From assembly GCF_007679045.1 (NCBI RefSeq), contig NZ_VEFS01000002.1:186001-250000 (forward strand): a stretch of 64,000 nucleotides of DNA, written 5' to 3'. This document shows positions 16,594-29,763 of the stretch, one piece after another. Numbering within the stretch: the stretch's first letter is position 1; every line of letters begins with the position of its first letter. Made by a program: the position numbers and the translations under genes. A model generated the notes under the pieces. The model ran no database searches and was not told the origin of the DNA. It saw only the letters and a program-made list of their open reading frames with translations. This stretch comes from Microbacterium sp. BH-3-3-3 (GTDB lineage: Bacteria; Actinomycetota; Actinomycetes; Actinomycetales; Microbacteriaceae).

Positions 16594-16678
16594 GGCGAGT
16601 TACCCAAGCGGCCAAAGGGATCTGACTGTAAATCAGACTGCATTGCATTCGGGGGTTCGAATCCCTCACTCGCCACCA
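16594..16678 (+). tRNA. tRNA-Tyr (anticodon GTA), CCA encoded
   Basis: Acceptor arms GGCGAGT (16594-16600) and ACTCGCC (16668-16674) pair perfectly. The anticodon stem holds CTGTAAA with GTA at 16628-16630, there is a long variable arm as expected for a class II tRNA, and the T loop is GGGGTTCGAATCCC. CCA is encoded at 16676-16678. The foreign island begins at once after this gene, and tRNA 3' ends are favoured integration sites. Confidence 0.97.
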
Positions 16679-17031: not shown

Positions 17032-17667
17032 TTAGGTCAACCGGTCCGCCTGGCTGCCGTACAAAACTGTGTCGGCGAACAACCGGGACTGCACAATGGG
17101 ATCGTCGATGGCGGGCAGGCCCTTGCTATGTCGGGAGATGTCCGCGTAGACGCTGGTCATGGTGGCCCTATCGGGCACCAGGCCGAGTAGTGCCGCTTTG
17201 CCGAGAACGGTAAGGGAGCTGATGAAGTCGAGGCCGTGCTGATTGGTCAGGCGTTGACCGCCGCCGTCGTCCACCACCACGACCACCCTTTCACCATGTT
17301 CTCTTAGTGCAGCGGCGTGGGCGACAGCCATTGTCTCGCCGAGGTCTTTGGCGCGGTGCGCCACCTCCGCGCGGGGGAATCCGAAGAGTTTTGATACCCA
17401 CCTGTCGAGGACCTCGTCGTCCCCAACCTGGTGGGTGGCGATGGCGAGTCGGTTGCGCCGTGCGGCTCCCTGCAGGTTGGATGCAGCGCGCGTGTACGGC
17501 AGGATCTCCGTCGACTTGTAGCCCACCTCGTCGGCAACGTCTTGCGGAACGAGAACGGAAGCACTGACCGCCTGTAGGACACCCAGGAGCACATCTGTGT
17601 GACCCGTTCCCATGAAACGCAGGCATGGGCCTGTGTCCAAAATTGTGACATCCAACCTAGAGGTCAT
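17032..17667 (-). CDS. PIN-domain nuclease-like protein (putative toxin)
   Basis: 211 residues. The N-terminus reads VTILDTGPCLRF with the first PIN Asp at residue 11; further acidic positions fit the PIN active site: Glu47 in ADEVGYKS, Glu111 in LGETMAVAHA, and Asp133/134 in VVVVVDDGGG. PIN domains are Mg-dependent RNases, frequent in toxin-antitoxin pairs. The gene is last of a three-gene operon after the Xre and ImmA/IrrE genes, overlapping the protease gene by 11 bases. I infer that the Xre protein represses the operon and that protease or Xre controls the nuclease. No experimentally known close relative can be named from sequence alone. Confidence 0.72.
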   Translation of the reverse strand: MTSRLDVTILDTGPCLRFMGTGHTDVLLGVLQAVSASVLVPQDVADEVGYKSTEILPYTRAASNLQGAARRNRLAIATHQVGDDEVLDRWVSKLFGFPRAEVAHRAKDLGETMAVAHAAALREHGERVVVVVDDGGGQRLTNQHGLDFISSLTVLGKAALLGLVPDRATMTSVYADISRHSKGLPAIDDPIVQSRLFADTVLYGSQADRLT

Positions 17668-18430
17668 CGAGTGAGAGTTCCCCTCCGGTCACCGGGGGAA
17701 CAATACCTTCAGCCTCAAACCGGCGTCGCAGTTGCTCCACCGGAGCGCCCTCCACGACCGCGACCGCTTCCAACGGCAGCTGGTGCAGCAGATAGGCGTC
17801 CGTGGCGTTGGCAAGCATCCGTGCTGGCGGGAGAGAAGTCAGGGATTCTTTGACCCGGATGTCGCGCGCGTCGGCCCAGCCGTATCGAAGAGCGAGCGAT
17901 GACGCTTCCGCGCTCGACCATTCTGACGCGAGAGACTCTCCGATATATCCGAAGCGCCGGAGTTGGATGGCAGCGACCTGTCCGGAGACGCGGAAGTGCT
18001 CGACGATGTTCGAGAGCATCCGGAGGCCGCCACCGTCGTTGCCACCCCCCGTGAAGAACGCCTCGAGCTCATGGCGTGGCAGGAGGAGGTGCCGGGCGAA
18101 GGCATGCGCTTGCAGCTCGCTCGCGTCGTCCTTCTCGGGAGTGTGCAGATGCCCGAAGACGAGATGGCCAATCTCATGAGCGAGTGAGAAGCGCTGACGC
18201 TCGGGGTTGTCCGAGGTGGCGATGGCAATGAGAACCACCTCCGTCTCCGGGTCCCGTTTGGTGACGGCGTCGGCAACGGCCGGCATTTTCATGAAGGCGA
18301 CGTCAGCATGGAAGACCCGACTGGCGATGGCAGGTAGGTCGAGCACCGGTGCGGTGATCTCGTATCGACTCTGAAACTCGCGTGCACGCGACTCCCCGAG
18401 ATCGTCCTGCGAGAAGTCCATGTCACGCAT
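17657..18430 (-). CDS. ImmA/IrrE family metallo-endopeptidase
   Basis: 257 residues. The zinc protease motif is LAHEIGHLVFGH, with His85, Glu86 and His89, followed by the third-ligand segment ASELQAHAFARHLLLP; this is the COG2856 ImmA/IrrE signature. Proteins of this family cut Xre-type repressors, releasing mobile-element or stress genes. The start ATG sits in ATGCGTGA, overlapping the end of the Xre gene by 8 bases. The C-terminal part (residues about 150-257) has no clear motif and may sense the trigger. Confidence 0.85.
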   Translation of the reverse strand: MRDMDFSQDDLGESRAREFQSRYEITAPVLDLPAIASRVFHADVAFMKMPAVADAVTKRDPETEVVLIAIATSDNPERQRFSLAHEIGHLVFGHLHTPEKDDASELQAHAFARHLLLPRHELEAFFTGGGNDGGGLRMLSNIVEHFRVSGQVAAIQLRRFGYIGESLASEWSSAEASSLALRYGWADARDIRVKESLTSLPPARMLANATDAYLLHQLPLEAVAVVEGAPVEQLRRRFEAEGIVPPVTGGELSLDDL

Positions 18431-18776
18431 GGGCGCCCACTTTCGTGTACCGCAAGTGCGCGTCCAACTCCATGAGGTAGTCGAGGCGGTCGTGGAGCGA
18501 TCCCAGCTCTTGGTTCTCCGACTCGGACAGGTTGCGGCTCTTCAGCCGCGTGACCGACACGAGACGCTCGCGCACCGGGCCGCTGACCGATATCGACTCG
18601 ACAGTTCGACCCAGCGCATTCGCCACGGCGCCCAGTTGACCCAGCGTGGGTTCTTTGCCGTCCTCGATACGCTGCCAGGTCGACTGGGAGATCCCCGCTC
18701 GCTTTGCGGCCTCCCGCTGATTTAGGCCGAGCGCGTTGCGTGCGTCACGCACTCGGGTCGCGAGGTTCTCGCTCAT
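18423..18776 (-). CDS. Xre-family helix-turn-helix regulator
   Basis: 117 residues. An HTH_3 domain occupies residues 5-60: RVRDARNALGLNQREAAKRAGISQSTWQRIEDG. The C-terminal half is helical. It is the first gene of the Xre-ImmA/IrrE-PIN operon, with AGGA just before the ATG. The expected role is operon autorepression and being the protease target. The divergent gene at 19018 has its promoter in the same 241-base gap. Confidence 0.88.
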   Translation of the reverse strand: MSENLATRVRDARNALGLNQREAAKRAGISQSTWQRIEDGKEPTLGQLGAVANALGRTVESISVSGPVRERLVSVTRLKSRNLSESENQELGSLHDRLDYLMELDAHLRYTKVGAHA

Positions 18777-19676: not shown

Positions 19677-20591
19677 TTATCCCTCCGGGAACGTGCCTGC
19701 AGTGCGCCATCCCTCGTGGTTCTGGTGGACTGCGAGCTCGCAATTGATCAAACGCGTGATGAGCGCGCGACGGCTATCCACGTCGTTTCTCAGCCAGACG
19801 TAATTGAGACCATCTATGTCGCTGAGGGGACGCACGTCTCCAATGCGCACGAGCACGACCTTGTCCGGGCGGAGAGCCATCGCCCACCCCGCCTCGAAGA
19901 TGACGTTCTGGCGCGCCTGGCCCGAGGGGGAAGCCTCCCGTGGATCATCCCTACCCGGCTGGAAGAAGTCGTGTTTGACGTATCCCAGGTCGTCGGGCGT
20001 CATCAGGACAACCACGGCGTCGGACATGTCAATGCCCGCCCGCACGATGTCGAGCGTGTGCGGGGTGCCGCCCCCCGCGTGCGTTGTCGCTTCGTCCCAG
20101 GTCACGACCCGCAGATCGAGTGAGGTGAGGAAAGCAACAAGTGATTTGTGTGCCGTGGTGTCGCGCCCGTGGACGACGAACACGTAACGACTTGTATGGG
20201 CCTCCGCGGCTTTTCGGGGTTCAGGAGCGGAAGTCCCCGGGCGAGCGAACTGCCGTCTCGGGGCATGTGCCGCGACGGGTGGCGTCGCGCCGGGCGAGGG
20301 GACGTGTCCATCCATCTGCTGCCAGAAGTCCTGAGATTCCGGGCTGCCCTTACCAAACTGCCGGCTCATTCCGGAGGCCGGCGTCGAAATGTACGAGATG
20401 AGCTGGTCGAGCTTCTCGCGCCTGTTGAGCTGACCGACCAGGTAGTTGGCCTTCTGCAGCTTGTTCATACTGCGGTCGGTGGGCACCCCAATCTCGTACC
20501 GCAGGTAAAGGCTGTCGAGCAAGGAGTGGGTTGCCTCGCGTTCGAGGAATTGCGCGAGGGATTGTTGTATCGCGCCGCTGAACTTCGTCAT
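19677..20591 (-). CDS. TIR-like domain protein with N-terminal adaptor-like helical domain
   Basis: 304 residues in two domains. Residues 1-70 are helical (YEIGVPTDRSMNKLQKANYL and LNRREKLDQLISYI) and resemble the effector-associated, death-like adaptor domains of bacterial conflict systems. After a Pro/Ala-rich linker, residues 135-290 match the TIR-like nucleotide-binding family (PF10137): YVFVVHGRD, VVVLMTPDDLGY, RQNVIFEAGWAMAL with the expected catalytic Glu233, and LSDIDGLNYV. Such domains act as NAD-cleaving effectors in anti-phage defence. No cyclase lies next to it. AAAGG precedes the ATG. It is probably downstream in the same transcript as the AlbA_2 gene. Confidence 0.78.
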   Translation of the reverse strand: MTKFSGAIQQSLAQFLEREATHSLLDSLYLRYEIGVPTDRSMNKLQKANYLVGQLNRREKLDQLISYISTPASGMSRQFGKGSPESQDFWQQMDGHVPSPGATPPVAAHAPRRQFARPGTSAPEPRKAAEAHTSRYVFVVHGRDTTAHKSLVAFLTSLDLRVVTWDEATTHAGGGTPHTLDIVRAGIDMSDAVVVLMTPDDLGYVKHDFFQPGRDDPREASPSGQARQNVIFEAGWAMALRPDKVVLVRIGDVRPLSDIDGLNYVWLRNDVDSRRALITRLINCELAVHQNHEGWRTAGTFPEG

Positions 20592-20697: not shown

Positions 20698-21985
20698 TCA
20701 ATAGCGGTCGAGGAGGCTGTCTTGCACACTGGCGACGACCTCCTTCGAGGCATTTTTCCATCCGAAGCGCTGGAAGAGTTGGCGGGCAAGCTCGGCTGCG
20801 ACGGGCTTGTGCTGGCCCTCGTCAAAGTACGGCGGCAAAATCTCGGTTTGCGTCCAATTGTCGTCGGCCATCGCGTACTCGTGAAGGAATGGGCGTCCGA
20901 GCTTGCGTGCAGTGAGTTGCCAGCCCTGAGCGTCCACCAGCGATACCGACACGGAGAAGGGCTGGTCCGGCGCTACCCGTTGCTGCAGGCGCGCGGCGAA
21001 GTGCGCCACGTCTGTGATGAAGTGCACCGGAAGGGAAAGGGGCAGATAGTGAGTGCCACCCTCACCGGCGCCCACTCCGCCCGGATCGGGGCCGAATCTC
21101 GTGGGCAGGGGGCGAACGAGAAGGAATTGTCCAGATTGAAACAACGCCCAAGTCTGCAACGCTGGCCCGTGCGTGTTCCCGAACAGATACGTCGCGCCGC
21201 GCTCCACAGAGCGCAGGTCGGGGAGTGTCGCATCGGCCGACACGGCGGAACCGTTCAGGGTTGCCTGCAGCGACTCGTACTCGATTTGGTCAGGCCGATA
21301 GTGCACCGGGTGCACCCATGCCATCAAACGCGGGCAGTCGATATAGGCCTGCGAGTCGGCGCGCTGCAGGTAGGTGTCTCGTTCGGTCCCGAAGGGCGGA
21401 GGCGCGTCGAGCGCTGCGCCAAAACCGACATTGCGCGCGGTTTGCAGGTACGCCCGGACACCTTTCTCGACGGCGAGTTGCAGCAGTTCGCGCAACTCGT
21501 TCGGCGTTTGCTGCGGGCTGGTTTCCGCCTTTGCCATCGACCGGGTGTAGAGCCGGCCCACGTGGATGTTCTGCTGGTGGGCACGCTTGGAGAGGACCGG
21601 CACGAGATCGAATTCTTTGACTTCGACCACGACGACGGACCGACCGTCCGGCAGCGCGCGCTCTGCCACAGCGAGCTGCACTGGGGGGGGCTGCGTAGGC
21701 GTTGATCTTGCTCATGACGTTGTCGACGTCAGTCCACTGCGCGACGAGATGGCTGTCCATGCCGCTGTTGGGACCCAGCGGTTGTTTATCGTCCACACCC
21801 AGGACGACGTGCCCGCCGTCGCGCATATTGGCCATGGCTAAGCACGCGCGAGCGACCACTGCGAGATAGTCCTTGGTGTTCAGGTCCCCGGCGGCTTTGA
21901 ACTCGACCCGCCGGGTCTCGCTGCCTGCTTCGACGAGCAAGCGCACGTCCTCATCTGTAAGCACTAGGCCAATGTAGGCGTTCAC
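20698..21985 (-). pseudogene. AlbA_2 (Schlafen-type) domain protein, interrupted by a frameshift at a G8 tract
   Basis: The 5' part (from GTG 21985) encodes an AlbA_2 domain: TRRVEFKAAGDLNTKDYL and GGHVVLGVDDK. The frame is then broken at eight consecutive G on the plus strand (21683-21690; C8 in the mRNA sense). With seven C the sequence reads smoothly from NAYAAPP into VQLAVAERALPDG and stays open to the stop at 20698, giving about 428 residues. AlbA_2 domains occur in bacterial defence and regulatory proteins; the C-terminal two thirds here are unrecognised. The cause may be a sequencing error, a real mutation, or phase variation by slippage. It lies 106 bases upstream of the TIR gene on the same strand. 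Confidence 0.75.
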
Positions 21986-22098
21986 TCTCGGCGACTTTCG
22001 CGCGGAGCGATGAGACGGGCATCCCTGGGATGAGCACGTCGCCTGTCGGTACACTGCAAGAGCTGCGACGGCGTGGCAGCTTCGCACGGGGGGGTGCA

Positions 22099-23178
22099 AT
22101 GCTCACAGAGGATGACGTGCGCGTGCTGCGCGCGTGCACCGGCAAATTGAACGCAAGCTCCGCTATCGCATGGGTCGCTGAAGGGCGGCGGCTCACCACA
22201 AACGACAGCCGGCAGCTTCTCGGTCCGTTACTCAAGGCGACTTCCTCGCAACTTCCTCTCGCGGATGAGGCGCTGTGGCGCGTGTCCCGTGACCTGTTGG
22301 CGAGTGACGTGGACAGCTCTGCGATGAGCGGTGAGGTCGCGCTGACCCCGACGCAGTGCGATGCCGCTCTCCGATTGCTCGCTGCCTTCCGCCCCTTGTC
22401 GGCCGTGCGTGGTGACGACCTCCAGCGCGCCTTCGCGCAGGATACGAACGTCATGGAGGTTTTTCTTCAGATCGCGGGTCTCACATGGAAGGACGCCCGG
22501 CGACTCTCGTCGGTGGAGTTGCCGGCCGAACCTTCGCCCTTTTTGACACCCCTGCAATTTGCCTCGATTGTGGCCCTTGTGCATTTCGCCCGCGTGACGC
22601 GCGGTCGTGCGCCCGTTGAAGTGATTACTTCGGACTTGCCCCCGGACGAGGTGCTCGACAGCTCGCACGCCAACGGCGTGTCCCTTGGGACGCTGCTCGC
22701 TCAACGCGCCGCCGGGGGCACCTGGCTCGCGCATCGGTCTCGGACGAGTGCGTCCGTGCGGATAGATGTCGTCTCCGACATCTGCGACGACCTGCAAGCC
22801 GCCGGCGTGCCTTTCCGCGCCAGCATCAAAGATCGTCCGTACACAAAATCTGCACGCTACCTCTCCGAGGAGGTGTGCGCGCCCGGCAAACGGATCGGCC
22901 AGCTCGCCATCGTTGTTCGGTCCTCGAACGGCACCCCGGCAGCGGCCGTTTGTGTAGCTGTGGCCCAGGACGGAGGAACCGCGCGGAAGACCGCGGCGAC
23001 CCTTCTCCCGGTTCCATTGGCGCTCACTATCCCTGCGTACCTGCTGCTGGCCGGCCCGGGGTGGCAATCACGAACCGAGACGCTCGGGCTGTTCCATGCC
23101 TTCGAAGGGCGTGTCTTCACTGATCGCGGTCGCACCGATCTGGTCGCGGCCCTGCAACAGCAATACGAAGGAGCCTGA
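22099..23178 (+). CDS. Unknown protein, first gene of the ParB/SNF2/nuclease operon
   Basis: 359 residues, not recognised. It looks globular and mixed alpha/beta with no membrane segment or signal peptide. Segments of note: VRGDDLQRAFAQDTNVMEVF, SDICDDLQAAGVPFRAS and the C-terminal LALTIPAYLLLAGPGW. I choose ATG 22099 with a G-rich site directly upstream; the frame also starts at 22030. A possible -10 TACACT is at 22050-22055. It overlaps the ParB-like start by one base (TGATG), so it is an integral part of the operon. Given its place, a nuclease, adaptor or sensor role is possible, but nothing in the sequence proves one. Confidence 0.7.
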   Translation: MLTEDDVRVLRACTGKLNASSAIAWVAEGRRLTTNDSRQLLGPLLKATSSQLPLADEALWRVSRDLLASDVDSSAMSGEVALTPTQCDAALRLLAAFRPLSAVRGDDLQRAFAQDTNVMEVFLQIAGLTWKDARRLSSVELPAEPSPFLTPLQFASIVALVHFARVTRGRAPVEVITSDLPPDEVLDSSHANGVSLGTLLAQRAAGGTWLAHRSRTSASVRIDVVSDICDDLQAAGVPFRASIKDRPYTKSARYLSEEVCAPGKRIGQLAIVVRSSNGTPAAAVCVAVAQDGGTARKTAATLLPVPLALTIPAYLLLAGPGWQSRTETLGLFHAFEGRVFTDRGRTDLVAALQQQYEGA

Positions 23179-24614
23179 TGACTCAGCCCATTACCGACGA
23201 AGCCCGCAGACAGGTCATCGCTGCGGCGCAAGAGGCGGCTAAGACCGCTGTTGCCGAAGGCTCCGCCGCGGCGGCTCAGCTCTTCTACAAGGGCCAGACC
23301 ATCACCCTGCCGGTCGCTCGAGTGAATTTGGACTACGTCCTGCTGAATCCCGGCAGCCACCGTATCGGAGGCCAGGTTCAGTCGTTACCGCAAGATAAGC
23401 GCAAGCTCCTCGAAGAGGACCCTCTCGGCGCCCCCGCACAGAAGTTGATTTCTGACCTCCTTCGGGAGACTGCGGGGTACAAGCGCATCCTTGAGACGCT
23501 CCGCGTGCAAGACCAGCGCCACGAAGGCGTGATCACCGATGCCGGTGTGCTCATCAATGCCAACACCCGCGCCGTAGCTCTGCGCGAGCTCGGTCAGCAG
23601 TACATCAACGTCGTTATCCTGCCCTCGGACGCAGAAGACACCGAATTCAACGAGATCGAGTTGCGGCTGCAGATGGCCGTCAACATCCAACAGGACTACA
23701 GCTTCACCTCGCAGCTGCTGTTCATCGCTGATCTTGTAACGAGCGGTCGCACCATCGATGAGATCGGTCGACACCTCCGGCCCGATCTGACAAGCAACGC
23801 CTCCGACTTGAAGAAGGCGAAGAACGAAGTTGAGCAGGAATTGCGTCTGCTTGCCCTGGTGAAGGAGCTCGTCGCGCTCGGCGGAGGCAACCTCGTCTAC
23901 ACCGACTTGGACGACAGTCGCCAGGCTCTGATCGAGATCGACAATGACTATCAGACCAGCAAGAACAAGGATCGCGAGGCAGCAGACCGGGTGAAGTACG
24001 CCCAGCTCACGGCCATGTTGTCACGGGTCGACTACAGGAAGATCCGCGGTATCGACGGCGCCCTCATCGACGGCTACATCGTCGACGCGTTGGAAGAGGA
24101 TGGCGTCCTCGCAGGCCGAGTTCAGGACCTCCTTTCCTCTAACGAGACCGATTCGGACGCACCCCTCGATGGGCTCGATTTCCTCGACGACGACGACGAT
24201 GAGGATGACGGCCCGGGGACGCAGACACCGGCATCTTTCAAGCGGCTTCTCACCCTCATTGCCCGAGCTGACCCTGAAGGCGAAGTGTCGCTGCCCGGAG
24301 TGGGAGACCAGCCGGATACAACGGTATCGACGGTGACTATCCGTTCTGCAATCCAGAACGCGTTCGTCGTGGCGCTGAAAAGCCGCGACCAGAACGCAGC
24401 TGCGGGCGACACCCTGAGTGCTCCCACTCGGTTGTTGAAATCGGCGGCAAGAAGTATTGACGATGCCCTTGCCGCCTTTGAGGACGTTCGAACGGATCCG
24501 GGCTTCGACCGAGACGCCTTCGACCGCGCCGTGGAGAAGCTGGAGCGAGCATACGAGTCGCTCAGCGACACGCTCGATGAGCAGCTGCCCGAGGCAGAGG
24601 TCATCGCTTCGTGA
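23178..24614 (+). CDS. ParB-like domain protein
   Basis: 478 residues. The region 40-200 resembles ParB/sulfiredoxin-fold proteins: a strand TITLPVARVNLD, then EGVITDAGVLINANTRAVAL, the equivalent of the 'dGxxidGnrR' motif, with AsnThrArg at 129-131. Helical DNA-binding-like region follows (IDEIGRHLRPD). Residues about 330-350 contain a run of Asp and Glu (DFLDDDDDEDDG), and the C-terminus is helical and possibly coiled-coil. ParB-fold proteins can bind or cut DNA and hydrolyse nucleotides; here I infer DNA recognition for the helicase. It overlaps the helicase start by four bases (GTGA). Confidence 0.68.
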   Translation: MTQPITDEARRQVIAAAQEAAKTAVAEGSAAAAQLFYKGQTITLPVARVNLDYVLLNPGSHRIGGQVQSLPQDKRKLLEEDPLGAPAQKLISDLLRETAGYKRILETLRVQDQRHEGVITDAGVLINANTRAVALRELGQQYINVVILPSDAEDTEFNEIELRLQMAVNIQQDYSFTSQLLFIADLVTSGRTIDEIGRHLRPDLTSNASDLKKAKNEVEQELRLLALVKELVALGGGNLVYTDLDDSRQALIEIDNDYQTSKNKDREAADRVKYAQLTAMLSRVDYRKIRGIDGALIDGYIVDALEEDGVLAGRVQDLLSSNETDSDAPLDGLDFLDDDDDEDDGPGTQTPASFKRLLTLIARADPEGEVSLPGVGDQPDTTVSTVTIRSAIQNAFVVALKSRDQNAAAGDTLSAPTRLLKSAARSIDDALAAFEDVRTDPGFDRDAFDRAVEKLERAYESLSDTLDEQLPEAEVIAS

Positions 24615-26473
24615 CGGCTCGTCTCAGTCTCGCGCTGCGCGGGACCACCGTACGCGCGACGCGCAACGACGTCCCCGACGCTTTCTGGTTCACCCTTCTT
24701 TCTGAATGGGGGACAGGGGGTGCCGATGTGAGTCGCCATCTCGACACGACCGTCGACCGGGTATTGCGGCGCACGGACTGGCTGAAAAGGGCGTGCGAGC
24801 AATTCGTTGTCAGCATCGACTGGGATGACGCTCTGTCGTCACTGATGCGCTCACTTCAGCAGGATCGGGTGCGCCTGCGAACCATCTTGGCCGAGGGTCC
24901 CGCATTGGACGCCGCGCAAGTGCAAGAGCGGCTGAGCGGCACCCGGTTCACCCGCACTCTCCGCCCCTTCCAAGTTCGTGACCTCGGGAAGCTGTTGGCC
25001 TTGGACAACGGTGCGAACTTCTCGGTACCGGGTGCAGGCAAGACCACGGTCGCGCTCGCGACTTACGAGGCCGAACGCATCGCCGGTCGCGTCGCGCAAA
25101 TGCTTGTCGTCGCGCCGCTGTCCGCATTCGAAGCATGGAAAGACGGGATCAACGACTGCTTCGACGGAGCCAAACCTACAATCGCGAGCGTAACGGGGGA
25201 CACCATCCCCAACGCCGAGATCGTGCTGGTGAACTATCACCGCTTGGATAACAGGTTCGACGCGCTTGCCGCCTGGGCGCGCGAGCGGCCGACGCTGCTG
25301 CTGCTCGATGAAGCGCACCGTATGAAGCGGGGGTGGGACGGTGCGTTCGGGACCGCGTGCTTGAACATGGCGCCGCTGGCCGCTCGACGAGATATCCTGA
25401 CCGGCACCCCTGCGCCGCAGAGCCCCGGGGATCTCACTGCGCTCATCGATTTCCTGTGGCCGGGGCAGGCGCGCAGGATCCTTCCGCAGGACGCACTCAG
25501 TCTGCCCGCCGCTCCGGATGCGGGGCAGCGGGTCGCTGAAGCGATCAGACCGCTGTTCGTTCGCACCAAGAAGTCCGACTTGGAATTGCGCGACCCGCAA
25601 CTGAGAGTTGTGACCGTCGACCCCAGCGAGTTGCAGTCGCAAATTTACGCTGCGCTACGAGACCGGTATAGCGGCGCGCTTGCCGTGTCTATGAACGACC
25701 GAGCGCGACTCGTTCGTATGGGTGCCGTAGTGATGTACCTGCTCGAGGCAGCGACCAACCCTAAGTTGCTGTCCGCGGGTTCGACGGCGGACGACGTTGA
25801 CGAGTTCCGACACCCGCCTTTGGACGTGCCCCCGGATTCGACACTGTGGGAACTCATCCGGCGCTACAACCAGTACGAGACCCCGACGAAATTCGAGCAG
25901 CTCGCCCGCATCGTGCACGAGAACGCAGAACAGGGACGGAAAACGCTCGTTTGGACAAATTTTGTCCGAAACATCCACACCCTCAAGCGTCTGCTGTCCC
26001 GCTATGAACCGGCAACGATCTACGGGGCCATCCCTCCCGAGGCCAGCGCCTCCGAGTCCGATGTCACCCGAGAACAGGAGTTGGCGCGCTTTCGCGATAA
26101 GGACGGACCTTGCAAAGTGCTTCTTGCCAACCCCGCCGCGATGAGTGAGGGCGTCAGCCTGCACCACGACGCTCACGACGCCGTTTACCTTGACCGCACT
26201 TTCAACGCAGGTCAGTATCTGCAATCGCTGGACCGGATTCACCGCCTCGGCTTGAAACCGGACGACGAGACGCGCATCACCTTTCTCGTCACGCGTGGCA
26301 CCGTCGACGAGGTCATCGACGCGCGAGTGAAAGCGAAGGCGACGCTGCTGGGAGAGATGTTGGACGACCCCGACATCGAAACAATGGCGTTGCCCTCCAA
26401 TGATCAGTACGGCGATCCCGTAGATGTCCAGGACCTCGAAGCGTTGTTCCGGCATCTCCGGGGCGAGGGATAG
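24611..26473 (+). CDS. SNF2-family DEAH helicase/translocase
   Basis: 620 residues. RecA domain 1: RTLRPFQVRDLGKLLAL (near 117), Walker A VPGAGKTT (139-146), DEAH box LLLLDEAHRMKRGWDG (233-236) and ILTGTPAPQSPGD (motif III). RecA domain 2: KTLVWTNFVRN, NPAAMSEGVSLHH and the SNF2 motif VI LQSLDRIHRLG. A 110-residue N-terminal extension has no known domain. Such translocases power restriction and defence complexes such as DISARM DrmD. GTG start overlapping the ParB-like stop; three bases separate it from the nuclease gene. Confidence 0.9.
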   Translation: MTARLSLALRGTTVRATRNDVPDAFWFTLLSEWGTGGADVSRHLDTTVDRVLRRTDWLKRACEQFVVSIDWDDALSSLMRSLQQDRVRLRTILAEGPALDAAQVQERLSGTRFTRTLRPFQVRDLGKLLALDNGANFSVPGAGKTTVALATYEAERIAGRVAQMLVVAPLSAFEAWKDGINDCFDGAKPTIASVTGDTIPNAEIVLVNYHRLDNRFDALAAWARERPTLLLLDEAHRMKRGWDGAFGTACLNMAPLAARRDILTGTPAPQSPGDLTALIDFLWPGQARRILPQDALSLPAAPDAGQRVAEAIRPLFVRTKKSDLELRDPQLRVVTVDPSELQSQIYAALRDRYSGALAVSMNDRARLVRMGAVVMYLLEAATNPKLLSAGSTADDVDEFRHPPLDVPPDSTLWELIRRYNQYETPTKFEQLARIVHENAEQGRKTLVWTNFVRNIHTLKRLLSRYEPATIYGAIPPEASASESDVTREQELARFRDKDGPCKVLLANPAAMSEGVSLHHDAHDAVYLDRTFNAGQYLQSLDRIHRLGLKPDDETRITFLVTRGTVDEVIDARVKAKATLLGEMLDDPDIETMALPSNDQYGDPVDVQDLEALFRHLRGEG

Positions 26474-26476
26474 CGC

Positions 26477-27367
26477 GTGAGTACGTCGCTGTACCTTCTG
26501 CAGGCAGCCGCTCTCGCGGCGTCCGTTCTCACCCCTTCCGGTACTCCGCAGCACACCGCCGATAAGAGCTACCGTTCGATGGTCACCGGCGGGCTCTACC
26601 GACACGACGCGCTCCGTGCAGGACAGGAAGTCCTAGAGCGGGCGAGCCTCGTGAAGATAGTCGACGATGTCATCTTCCCGGTCGAAGACCTGCAGGCGAT
26701 GACGCGCATGCCTCAACAGGACGCGGTCGAGATGCTGTTTCGCGCGCTCGTTCTTCAGGAGCGACCCCTCTGGTTGTGGGGGCTCGTCGACGAACGCGGC
26801 CTGCACTTGGACAATGTCCCCGACGACGCGGCGTCAGTGCTCTCCAAGATGATGCGAACGGTGGAGGAGCGGGAGGCTTACCTCCTCAGCCTGGCGCGGA
26901 CGGTGGATACTCAGCAGCTTAAAGAGCTGGGCCTTCGTGGCGAGGAGCTGGTCGTCGCCACGTGCCGGGCACACCTCAGCGACCGCGGACGCTCGGATCT
27001 TGCTGATCTTGTTTGCCGGGTGAGCGAGATCAGCGACGAGCTGGGATACGACATCACCTCCATCGACACTGGCGGTACTCGCCACCGTCTCGAAGTCAAA
27101 GCGACTCGTGTGGCTGTCAACAAATTCGAGTTCTACCTCTCGCGCAACGAGGCGGATTTCGCCGCCCGGGACCGGAATTGGTCCTTGGTAGCGGTCTGCC
27201 TCGACGGCGACGACCGTGTTCTCGGGTGGTGCAGGAGCGAGGCGCTCGCACCCCACCTTCCCGTGGATACGAGCGAGTTTGCTCGATGGGCCAGCGTCAA
27301 AGTGTCGATGCCATTGGCCGATCTCACGCCCGGCTTGCCGTTGGACGCAAGAACGGGTGCTCACTGA
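26477..27367 (+). CDS. DUF3883-type PD-(D/E)xK nuclease-like protein
   Basis: 296 residues. The C-terminal domain has the DUF3883 pattern: RGEELVVATCRAHL, ISDELGYDITSIDTGG, HRLEVKAT and FYLSRNEADFA. Predicted catalytic residues are Glu156 or 157, Asp192 and Glu206-x-Lys208, giving a PD-(D/E)xK nuclease core. The first 150 residues form a helical domain of unknown role. GTG start three bases after the helicase stop. Its end overlaps the converging methyltransferase gene by 44 bases. I infer this is the DNA-cutting part of the system. Confidence 0.8.
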   Translation: MSTSLYLLQAAALAASVLTPSGTPQHTADKSYRSMVTGGLYRHDALRAGQEVLERASLVKIVDDVIFPVEDLQAMTRMPQQDAVEMLFRALVLQERPLWLWGLVDERGLHLDNVPDDAASVLSKMMRTVEEREAYLLSLARTVDTQQLKELGLRGEELVVATCRAHLSDRGRSDLADLVCRVSEISDELGYDITSIDTGGTRHRLEVKATRVAVNKFEFYLSRNEADFAARDRNWSLVAVCLDGDDRVLGWCRSEALAPHLPVDTSEFARWASVKVSMPLADLTPGLPLDARTGAH

Positions 27368-29393
27368 GCTCGGTTCGCATCTTTTCCGCCCACCCGTCGG
27401 GGAGCTCGCCGACCTGTCGGACGTACCCGGATACGAGGCTGAGGAAGCTCGCTTCGTCGCCGTCGTTTGCACCCGGGTAGTGCTGCAGCACGGGCCGGGA
27501 CCCGCGCGGCACCAGATCAAGGATCAGGTCGAGTGTGCACGCGCGGACGTTACGCTTGGCCGCGTCCGACTCGTTCTCGCTATGGATGATCTCGGTCCCG
27601 GCGGTGCGATAGCCCGCGTTGTGCAACGCGCCCAACAGCTCAATCCACGCACGCGGATCGCGGTTTGCGAAGCTGAAAATGAGGTGCCCGTCGGCGCGGA
27701 GTGTCCGACGGCACTCGCGGAAGATGCGGGCGAGAAGGTCGGCCTGCGGCTCCTCACGCGCAATGCGTGGATTTACCGCGACATCCCCGAAGACGGCAGT
27801 CGTGGGCAGCCCCGCCCACGCGCGAAGAGGAAGTGAGAGCTCCTCGTACTGGACATCGTCGTGGTACGGCGGGTCCGTTAGGACGAGGTCGCAGGAACCG
27901 TCCGGTAGCGTCTGACGTTCGGAACTACCCCATGCCACCGTGACTGGCGATTCCCATGACCCCGTCGAGCTCGACTGGGTCACATCCTGAAACGCGGCCG
28001 AAATAGGCGTACCCACGCGCGAGGACCACCAATCGCTTGCGGACAACATCCTCGCAACGCGCCGCAGCACTGTCCCACGCCCGCTGGCTCGTGTACCCCA
28101 CACGTTCGGTTCGGCCGCGAACGTTGTGAAGTTGAACCGATGGTTTGCCATCGACTCGAAGCTCTTCAGGTAGAACCGATCCCAGCGGGACAGTAAACCG
28201 GCCATCTCGGTCGTCCCAATGATGGCTAGCCGCAGCGCATCTCCTACACGGTCGTCGCTCGCAACATACTGAACCTCATCGAGCAACTGCTCAGTCAGTA
28301 TCTGTTGCCGCCGAGGGTACAAGTCCTGCCAGCGGCGGAACCCGTGGCGCAGCAACACCGCGGTCTCCTGGCCGTCTGGGATCTCCCCGAGATCACGTAC
28401 GGGCTTCCACCGGACGTCTTCGGCCTGCTGAACCTCAGCCGGGCGCGGCAGGTCGATCTCGCGTCGCCGGCCGCTACTACGTTCGACCAGCACGGGTTCC
28501 CACCGATAGCTGGACTGTTCGGCGCGCTCGCTCAGCCTGTCGTCCTTCCCGCACGACCAGCAACGGATGATGCGCCGTCCGGTGTAGTTTGCTGACGGCT
28601 CGACGGTGAGCTGACACTGCGGGCACCCCTGCGTTCCGTCGCGCAACCCGCGGAACAGATGACCTCGGGCGCAGGCTAGGAATGCGGCGCTTTCCCCGCG
28701 CTCGGCGCGCGCACACAGACTGACCAGAGCGTGCGGGAACATGCGACTGCGCACATCGCAGTGGGTGCAGGCTGCAACGGCGACGCGGAAGGTGTGCGAG
28801 ATCTCACCTCGAGCGCCGTCCGAGAGGGTTGTCCCATACGCCGCCTCGGTCAGCGCCGTGATGCGCTGGGCCAGTGCGGCGAATCCCTCTTCGAGGTCGG
28901 CTCTGGCCGGCGAGCTCAGCATCGCCTTCAGCCCACGAGCAGCCCAGGGGTTGAGGTCCTGGGCGTAGACGCGGTGGCCACGAGCAACCGCAGCGAGGGG
29001 AATGACTCCGCCTCCAGCGAACGGATCGCTGATGAGCAGTGATTGGCCGCGGTCAAGCGCAGCGGCGTCGATGAGTGCCCCGTTGACCGCCTCAGTTCGC
29101 CGGGCCCACCATCGGTACGTGGTGACGGGAGGCAGCTGAATCTCTCGGTTACGGCTTTCGCTGCGGGCGCTAGCGCTCACGTGAGCCGTATCGAGGTGGC
29201 GCAACGGACTGCGAATGAGCCCCGGTGCGTCCGACCGTGGTGGGCTTTCGGGCCGCGTCTGCCCCGTTGCTCCGTATGCCATCTCGACTGCCCCCGGCTC
29301 GCTGGGCACGGTCTCCCTGCGCCCGCCCTCCATCCTGCCATGCGGGAGTCGGGGTTCTCGCGTGTACCCGGGGGCGAGATGCAAGTTGCTCAT
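27324..29393 (-). CDS. Zn-ribbon DNA methyltransferase (COG1743/DUF1156-like)
   Basis: About 689 residues from ATG 29393. Seen: N-terminal VTTYRWWARRTEAVNGAL, SAM-binding loop SDPFAGGGVIPLAAVARGH, a pair of zinc knuckles (GCPQCQ and CWSCGKDD), and the catalytic LTDPPYHDDVQYEELSLPLRAW near the C-terminus. This order matches adenine-specific methylases with Zn-ribbon; an N4-cytosine or N6-adenine product is expected because of DPPY. The start is uncertain: 29282 would also give a full core, and the frame is open to 29522. It is probably the protective modification enzyme for the facing nuclease operon. The 3' end overlaps that operon by 44 bases. Confidence 0.82.
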   Translation of the reverse strand: MSNLHLAPGYTREPRLPHGRMEGGRRETVPSEPGAVEMAYGATGQTRPESPPRSDAPGLIRSPLRHLDTAHVSASARSESRNREIQLPPVTTYRWWARRTEAVNGALIDAAALDRGQSLLISDPFAGGGVIPLAAVARGHRVYAQDLNPWAARGLKAMLSSPARADLEEGFAALAQRITALTEAAYGTTLSDGARGEISHTFRVAVAACTHCDVRSRMFPHALVSLCARAERGESAAFLACARGHLFRGLRDGTQGCPQCQLTVEPSANYTGRRIIRCWSCGKDDRLSERAEQSSYRWEPVLVERSSGRRREIDLPRPAEVQQAEDVRWKPVRDLGEIPDGQETAVLLRHGFRRWQDLYPRRQQILTEQLLDEVQYVASDDRVGDALRLAIIGTTEMAGLLSRWDRFYLKSFESMANHRFNFTTFAAEPNVWGTRASGRGTVLRRVARMLSASDWWSSRVGTPISAAFQDVTQSSSTGSWESPVTVAWGSSERQTLPDGSCDLVLTDPPYHDDVQYEELSLPLRAWAGLPTTAVFGDVAVNPRIAREEPQADLLARIFRECRRTLRADGHLIFSFANRDPRAWIELLGALHNAGYRTAGTEIIHSENESDAAKRNVRACTLDLILDLVPRGSRPVLQHYPGANDGDEASFLSLVSGYVRQVGELPDGWAEKMRTELSEHPFLRPTASRA

Positions 29394-29445
29394 GAACTGA
29401 CTATGCGCGGCAAAGCCACCGACGTGGTCACGGCCGCCTCGGCCC

Positions 29446-29763
29446 CTAGAGGCGGTCGATCCAGGTGTCGTGATCACGTTGGTCCCACGAGCTTCCAGTC
29501 GCGCTGCGTCCACCTGCAGCAACGCGGCTCTCCAGCCGGCCGATCAGGGTGACCGCTTGTCGGGCTGTGAGGTCTTGCACGCGGGAGATCCGGACCCCGA
29601 TCAATTCGGCGACCACCTCGAACTGGGTGGGGGCGTCGACGATGCCGAGGGTGCGGAAGTGGCCGCCGATAACGACCCGTTGATCCGGAGTCATGGGATA
29701 GGTGGTCGGTTCGACCGGCTGCTCAGGCTCTTCGAAGTCAAACAATGATGGCTGATCGCTCAC
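29446..29763 (-). CDS. Small hypothetical protein upstream of the methyltransferase
   Basis: 105 residues. The core (MTPDQRVVIGGHFRTLGI, then VAELIGVRISRVQDLTARQA and LIGRLESR) resembles a short helical domain found in actinophage and plasmid proteins that ends 'LTxxEAxxVIxxLE'. The N-terminus is acidic (SLFDFEEPEQP). GTG start with a G-rich site upstream. It lies 52 bases before the chosen methyltransferase start on the same strand, so the two form an operon; a DNA-binding accessory role is a guess. Confidence 0.6.
   Translation of the reverse strand: MSDQPSLFDFEEPEQPVEPTTYPMTPDQRVVIGGHFRTLGIVDAPTQFEVVAELIGVRISRVQDLTARQAVTLIGRLESRVAAGGRSATGSSWDQRDHDTWIDRL

Follow-up and report, generated by a model that had tools for sequence, protein, structure and literature searches.

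Five genes of the window analysed here, a 64,000-nucleotide stretch of Microbacterium sp. BH-3-3-3 (contig NZ_VEFS01000002.1, positions 186,001 to 250,000), probably encode an unnamed motor-driven restriction-modification machine with a pseudo-restriction endonuclease (pseudo-REase) as its specificity subunit. The genes are designated A, B, C, D, and M. The folds of A and B, the loss of the active site in A, the intact motifs of C, D, and M, and the inheritance of the genes as a unit are read from sequences and predicted models, and from these we infer a course of action. M would methylate the host copies of a target sequence, and A, apparently a dead Type II restriction enzyme, would read the site of M by binding the same sequence when it is unmethylated. 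A would load B, a putative ParB-type nucleotide-gated clamp that would close around DNA, together with the SNF2 motor C. C would then move along DNA as a translocase, and D, a PD-(D/E)xK nuclease, would cut the target DNA. Cleavage, methylation, and phage defence are the activities proposed for the five proteins, with phages as the presumed target.

We give about even chances to a broader proposal, namely that the locus represents a new type of restriction-modification, in which a dead Type II REase matched to a linked methylase loads a ParB clamp and an SNF2 motor, and a separate nuclease cuts. Such systems would have been assembled at least three, perhaps four, times by killing different REases, and the NaeI, GIY-YIG, and DUF4928 partners found in some of them would be interchangeable for the methylase-protected site. 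The dead REase would have been captured to aim other activities, much as dead Cas9. The first-pass annotation of this stretch had already suggested an unnamed restriction-modification-like system; the gene association and the lack of a match to a named system agree with that, while the nature of A had been missed and a role in defence is, as then, presumed. The dead restriction enzyme and its repeated origin are the decisive addition.

Protein A and related families of restriction enzymes

The predicted structure of protein A (AlphaFold2 (AF2) model from a 14-row alignment, pLDDT 85.5) has a restriction-endonuclease-like fold. When it was compared with solved structures in Foldseek, BstEII was the best match (E 4.9e-4, probability 1.00) and BsoBI the second (E 0.036, probability 0.85). 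A second comparison (VIA) also placed BstEII (Z 10.6, 243 aligned residues, root-mean-square deviation 6.2) and BsoBI (Z 10.0, 233 aligned, deviation 5.3) at the top, followed in rows 3 to 5 by the Type II REases BsaWI (9.1), AgeI (8.6), and PspGI (8.5). According to the tool, top Z values of 7 to 8 are frequent, so the BstEII and BsoBI matches carry the weight. The earlier designation of A as an unknown protein no longer holds.

The catalytic PD...(D/E)xK of Type II REases is absent from all 12 copies of A located directly before B, that of the window included (0/12 with PD or ExK). The D-x-G-T-A motif a few residues beyond the lost ExK site is retained in these operon copies. Five extra copies do not precede B (designated A'; loci L030, L031, L191, L192, and L193); ExK is kept in all of them, and PD in all four that are long enough. 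The alignment explains why sequence searches miss the nature of A, as PD and ExK are gone from the operon copies. Ten sequences of the window were scanned with Pfam, NCBIfam, and PADLOC (version from 2023), and in Pfam A, B, M, and S (a small protein encoded before M) had no family above its cut-off; comparing PDB chains with sequence profiles for A, B, and D also gave nothing useful. In L191, A' is directly behind, and overlaps, a 717-aa M-like gene, and in L192 it is 8 bases behind a methylase gene; B, C, and D were not found near the methylase and A' pair in these two stretches. The pair thus occurs alone, and A is placed by sequence as a dead descendant or a sister of the active-looking A'. 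On both model and alignment, A has the appearance of a Type II restriction enzyme that has lost catalysis.

Relatives were compared over 103 loci with a C motor: the window, 80 loci from species genomes (the best 80 of 530 relatives), and 22 from plasmids, a phage, viral contigs, and genomes of the family. Among 96 plasmid records with a C relative, seven were taken beyond those found through B, and of 80 viral loci the top four count as members, with the remaining 76 serving as a control. According to methylase profiles built from the 103 loci themselves, 92 have a methylase no more than 7 kb from C: C5 in 60, M in 15, Eco57I-like N6 in 12, N4/N6 in three, and M with C5 in two. M is thus this close to the motor in 17 loci, and the recurrence of these genes together, posed as a check in the earlier annotation, is confirmed. 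Among the 11 loci without a profile methylase, L020 and L021 carry an annotated type III Mod, L010 has a cytosine methylase elsewhere on the same small plasmid, in L057, L074, and L095 the sequence ends near C, in L081 C is broken, and no B was found in L048; L012, L025, and L110 are exceptions lacking a methylase by profile. The C5-methylase match in L030 is a long-branch row and was not counted as a further methylase of the system there.

Loci with a C5 methylase have, ahead of B, genes of families other than window-type A. In the first, Apd, none of the 26 copies before B has [E/D]xK, and they read IQK, VQK, or IRK (L011 and L074 are identical), in contrast to 10 of 11 standalone copies, which have it (seven ELK, three DLK, the remaining one AVK). 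Standalone Apd overlaps the end of a cytosine methylase gene in 8/8 plasmid records examined (stretches of 8 among 18 with an Apd relative were taken) and in Rhizobium record L009; the Kozakia copy is split in two. In the second family, Ahnh, the HNH histidine is present in 0/30 copies beside B and C versus 6/6 others, of which L208, the only one scanned, matches Pfam HNH. A further family is BanI-like: it precedes B in a viral contig and in a phage of Streptococcus, and it passes the Pfam cut-offs for RE_BanI and DpnII. It reads VSF...DVS where a weak comparator (L214) reads FDF...ETN; this comparator, below the family cut-off, was all that a search for active BanI relatives returned. The third known BanI-like copy (phage scaffold L215) lies between B and a 451-aa gene read as a C5 methylase, and its ExN-like motif is absent by eye. 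The BanI-like protein of L108 gave nothing useful as a sequence profile against PDB chains. Profile comparisons revealed no relation between A and Apd (probability 0.1%), A and the BanI-like family (2%), or Apd and the BanI-like family (0.1%). In each of the A, Apd, and Ahnh trees, the copies linked to B and C are one side of a branch (supports 100, 100, and 92), with one change each. The sequences point to at least three independent inactivations of restriction enzymes beside B and C, those of A, Apd, and Ahnh, and a BanI/DpnII-like fourth case is suggestive.

The type of dead protein follows the methylase. Window-type A is found in 12/17 M-type loci and 0/86 others; Apd occurs in 26 loci, of which 23 have a C5 methylase in reach, and Ahnh in 28, every one with C5; neither is ever found with M or N6. 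GIY-YIG proteins (12/103 loci) always accompany Apd and never Ahnh, DUF4928 proteins (7/103) accompany Apd in five loci and never Ahnh, and NaeI (11/103) occurs only with Ahnh; Sau3AI-like enzymes are in 4/103. A tree of the C5 methylases, which takes in the standalone pairs and has 66 labelled rows, falls into an Apd and an Ahnh clade with a single change of label; inside the Apd clade, GIY-YIG partners are mixed with DUF4928 ones. Such a pattern is expected if each dead protein has the target of its methylase and the active enzyme is swapped for others of the same site. NaeI reads GCCGGC, and the GIY-YIG enzyme Eco29kI reads CCGCGG. DUF4928 proteins lie near C5 methylases in L055, L059, L061, L073, L008, L043, and L093. 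As these methylases are of the clade of the GIY-YIG partners, the DUF4928 proteins may be restriction enzymes with the same target as those partners.

Clamp, motor, nuclease, and methylase

Protein C matches Pfam SNF2-rel_dom (1e-13) and Helicase_C (6e-8), and its motifs FSVPGAGKT, DEAH, LTGTP, and DRIHR are invariant in 11/11 rows, as expected of an intact SNF2 motor. Protein D matches Pfam NOV_C (2e-9), the DUF3883 of the first-pass annotation, and residues E156, D192, E206, and K208 are invariant in 30/30 aligned rows, so that by sequence D is a PD-(D/E)xK-type nuclease with its catalytic residues kept. Both assignments had been made before and are now backed by Pfam and conserved motifs. 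D is present in 15/17 M-type and 11/12 N6-type loci. In four Firmicute loci (L013, L022, L023, and L024), the motor has an N-terminal extension with a PLD-like (HxK) sequence; of two scanned with PLDc_2 (PF13091), L024 is above the Pfam cut-off and L013 slightly below. The extension is read as a PLD nuclease, and a nuclease domain fused to the motor suggests that motor and nuclease belong together in one machine. In the available portions of two surveys, DUF3883 is described as a novel REase domain fused to SNF2 helicase in restriction-modification operons (HEPN study of 2013, PMC3710099) and as a presumed Type II REase group (archaeal survey, PMC10609329).

The AF2 model of protein B (pLDDT 88.2) matches KorB, Noc, Spo0J, and ParB over approximately residues 38-307, which upholds the ParB fold claimed previously; this part comprises the nucleotide-switch domain and what is read as a helix-turn-helix part. 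R131 is invariant in 30/30 aligned rows and is taken for the Box-II arginine of the ParB-CTPase fold. The sections of PMC12704722 at hand state that ParB-CTPase folds bind CTP, ATP, or GTP, and that changing the conserved Box-II arginine abolishes nucleotide binding. B is sporadic in the family of the window, as it was found in 5/299 sampled genomes, the window genome included.

The M of the window carries DPFAGGG, TDPPY, and three CxxC pairs. Across 17 M proteins TDPPY is present in 17/17, in agreement with the DPPY methyltransferase named earlier, and DPF[AS]GGG in 11/17. M matches NCBIfam DUF1156_antiphage at 1.2e-18, far below the model cut-off, and the HmaB profile of PADLOC at 2.6e-13, so by sequence it is probably a distant relative of the DUF1156/HmaB methylases. 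The other M open reading frames (ORFs) have 644-698 aa, one 763, and from these lengths the M of the window may really begin further into its 732-aa ORF. The small protein S, placed before M by the first annotation, is there in the window; as a core part it was rejected, since phmmer found it in only one (L029) of 102 other loci. The nearest plasmid relative of M (37% identity) is on a Rubrobacter plasmid (L019, 8917-10854), in a different operon, which also encodes a PLD-domain protein and a large protein related to helicases.

The motor tree was computed by a quick method from 100 rows, 94 of them labelled; L018, L081, and L095, with a broken or truncated motor, were left out, and L010, L020, L021, and L034 received their methylase labels manually. 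In this tree, the kind of methylase changes four times and the kind of A six times, against no fewer than 28 and 41 changes, respectively, in 200 shuffles. The M-type clade consists of 17 loci from what we take, by the organism names of the records, to be Actinomycetota, Acidobacteriota, and Pseudomonadota. Within it, pairwise identity correlates with that of C at 0.96 for A (12 loci), 0.95 for B (17), 0.95 for D (15), and 0.89 for M (17), the pairs being non-independent. By these sequences, A, B, C, D, and M are inherited as a unit, with the methylase linked to the restriction genes. In a sister clade (L040, L042, L045, L046, L049, L050, L052, L054, L065, L067, L068, and L085), B and C go with an Eco57I-like N6 methylase. 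The B-C module is common to loci with five kinds of methylase: M, C5, Eco57I-like N6, N4/N6, and type III Mod. In L020 and L021 (Lactococcus and Enterococcus plasmids), Mod-Res type III genes are directly followed by the ParB-like and SNF2 genes, which indicates that the B-C pair also attaches to type III systems. Among the 76 distant viral SNF2 loci, the profiles used above, themselves derived from the 103 loci, found a methylase in 10 and B in none.

Locus layout and genomic setting

The coordinates of the genes are given in Table 1. According to the ORF list, A and B overlap by 1 base and B and C by 4 bases, C and D are 3 bases apart, and D and M are convergent with a 44-base overlap; the four coupled plus-strand genes converging on a methyltransferase are as previously described.

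Table 1. Genes of the A-B-C-D-M locus in the window
Gene	Position	Strand	Predicted product and basis
A	22099-23178	+	Pseudo-restriction endonuclease with REase-like fold, PD...ExK lost; proposed target-recognition subunit (AF2 model, alignment)
B	23178-24614	+	ParB-fold protein with helix-turn-helix region; proposed nucleotide-gated clamp (AF2 model, alignment)
C	24611-26473	+	SNF2-family SF2 ATPase; proposed DNA translocase (Pfam, motifs)
D	26477-27367	+	NOV_C (DUF3883) PD-(D/E)xK-type nuclease, intact site (Pfam, alignment)
M	27324-29522	-	DUF1156-like amino-methyltransferase with DPFAGGG, TDPPY, and CxxC pairs; proposed self-marking enzyme
S	29446-29763	-	Small protein preceding M; non-core (phmmer)

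The G+C content of the window is 60-67% at 17-30 kb and mostly 68-78% in the rest, and a tRNA-Tyr gene (16594-16678) is located just ahead of the low-GC stretch. Because of the lower G+C content and the tRNA gene at its edge, the stretch looks like an acquired island. Other genes are also present there. An SLFN AlbA_2-domain gene (20698-22099, minus strand) has a frame shift, apparently near a G run at about 21685, and may be a pseudogene or contain a sequence error. The gene at 19677-20591 (minus strand) encodes a TIR protein of the CAP12/Pycsar type whose N-terminus is weakly EAD7-like (below cut-off), and it matches PADLOC candidate PDC-S35. At 17032-18776 (minus strand), an ImmA/IrrE-type metallopeptidase gene (capP/RmrA-like) lies between a small gene reading as an XRE-type regulator and a third gene; this group adjoins tRNA-Tyr at the edge of the island.

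Alternative explanations and known systems

Several observations weigh against a restriction machine aimed by a dead REase. A is absent from 5/17 M-type loci (L027, L034, L039, L041, and L044), and a genome-wide search did not find it elsewhere in those five genomes; the positive control of this search, 5/5, was bound to succeed, since the query alignment already contained those A proteins. A can therefore be lost or replaced. None of the 12 N6-methylase loci has a gene of the A, Apd, or Ahnh families, so target recognition there must come from elsewhere. The losses number three and not 68, as there is one loss event per family. Standalone Apd of L060 has AVK in place of ExK, Apd has no Pfam match, and its PD-(D/E)xK reading comes from the motif. 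Placement of Ahnh varies: 18 of 30 copies are upstream of B on the same strand, which is the place of A, 10 are upstream on the other strand, and two are downstream. The M-type locus L034 adjoins a complete second system made up of a C5 methylase, Vsr, and an MvaI/BcnI-type REase. Taking the best-matching genome loci leans the sampling to the side of the window, and the motor alignment, built from loci found mostly via B, favours B-linked motors. Finally, D is missing within 7 kb in 15/28 Ahnh loci (the contig of L018 ends at C) and in 2/17 M-type loci. Vsr is carried by 14 of these 15 D-less Ahnh loci, directly after C in L101 and L104. It normally accompanies C5 methylases and may be unrelated to the missing D.

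The standalone partner enzymes of many C5-type loci, and the MvaI/BcnI-type REase with its own C5 methylase beside L034, would also suit a back-up arm of a Type II system, in which A, B, C, and D degrade or process DNA bound or cut by the partner REase, or guard the host when methylation lapses. We regard this as unlikely, as no REase was seen among the three scanned neighbours of the window genes, and active-looking A' copies occur in only 2/17 M-type loci (L030 and L031). In addition, the four REase profiles match no M-type or N6-type locus, where other REase families were not systematically searched.

Silencing is similarly doubtful. Here, dead A would bind unmethylated sites, the ParB-like clamp would spread, and the motor would strip or block polymerases, with D as an accessory. 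The dead site of A in operon copies, the Ahnh loci lacking D, and the match of B to Noc, KorB, and ParB are in its favour, ParB being described, in the literature passages available, as spreading from its site. It accounts poorly for a nuclease whose site is kept in every aligned row and which is found in nearly all M-type and N6-type loci, or for the PLD nuclease domain fused to the motor in Firmicutes.

Maintenance of a plasmid or island, with B acting in partition and the rest stabilizing the element, is very improbable. B has a ParB-like fold, several relatives are on plasmids, and ParA genes are nearby in L010, L013, and L020, but ParA is not a recurrent neighbour (two loci in neighbour clustering), and the association is with methylases. 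Pfam revealed no ParA partner beside B in the operon of the window, and membership in ParABS was rejected on both grounds. A chance meeting of the methylase with an unrelated A-D operon inside a defence island would fit the island-like region of lower G+C with its TIR, SLFN, and ImmA/IrrE genes, but is the least probable of all, given the congruence of methylase kind with the motor tree and the far rarer methylases, by profiles of our own loci, beside distant viral motors.

DISARM also has an SNF2 protein and a methylase, and is defined by DrmA, DrmB, and DrmC. The previous conclusion that the locus is not DISARM stands: no DrmB or DrmC was found in the ten window sequences, and the DrmA (E 0.0025) and DrmD profiles of PADLOC touch only C, weakly. 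Type I and III restriction-modification systems resemble the locus in their ATP-driven SF2 motor and in having recognition in another subunit, HsdS or Mod, whereas here it is proposed in a REase-derived one. Type II pairs of methylase and REase (M-like with A', dcm with standalone Apd) have active-looking homologues directly beside the methylase gene and are the likely source of A; they differ by an intact REase site and by having no motor, clamp, or second nuclease.

The nearest known mechanism is that of CglI/NgoAVII (PMC4267653). In the parts of that paper available, methylase, ATPase, and restriction proteins are separate, a recognition protein triggers the SF2 ATPase, and cleavage needs ATP hydrolysis. 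The recognizing R-protein there carries a B3 domain and is at once the active PLD nuclease, the ATPase contains a Z1 domain, and these parts describe no ParB-like clamp and no dead REase. Firmicute members of the present group are partially alike in their PLD domain, which is fused to the motor. Membership was rejected, as Pfam revealed no PLD, B3, or Z1 domain among the scanned window sequences. The DUF499-centred BREX-related (BR)/Hma systems have an amino-methylase to which M is probably related and a Swi2/Snf2 helicase with a nuclease, and the tripartite core outlined in the accessible text of PMC12839542 is without a ParB-like protein or dead REase; no DUF499 or HmaC match was found among the ten scanned sequences, and this membership was also rejected. 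ParB-CTPase folds outside ParABS are similar to B, which has the fold and an invariant arginine where Box II is expected, but the available sections of PMC12704722 report no SNF2, REase, or methylase operon of its kind.

No description of ParB with SNF2 and DUF3883 and a dead restriction enzyme was found in the literature searched (few subscription papers and no bioRxiv, and in part excerpts), and no named system in Pfam, NCBIfam, or PADLOC 2023, so within these sources the earlier statement that no named system has this set is sustained. Plasmid records annotate the recurrent cluster "ParB + DEAD/DEAH helicase + DUF3883" only domain by domain, and the proposed machine, if true, would explain it. 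Restriction-modification would then gain a class in which recognition was split from cutting by killing a REase and coupling it to a clamp and a motor, and a ParB-type switch would be placed in a DNA-restriction setting. It would also predict a common target site for the methylase, the dead REase, and the partner REase of any one locus. For bacteria, this would be an unrecognised way to tell foreign DNA from their own.

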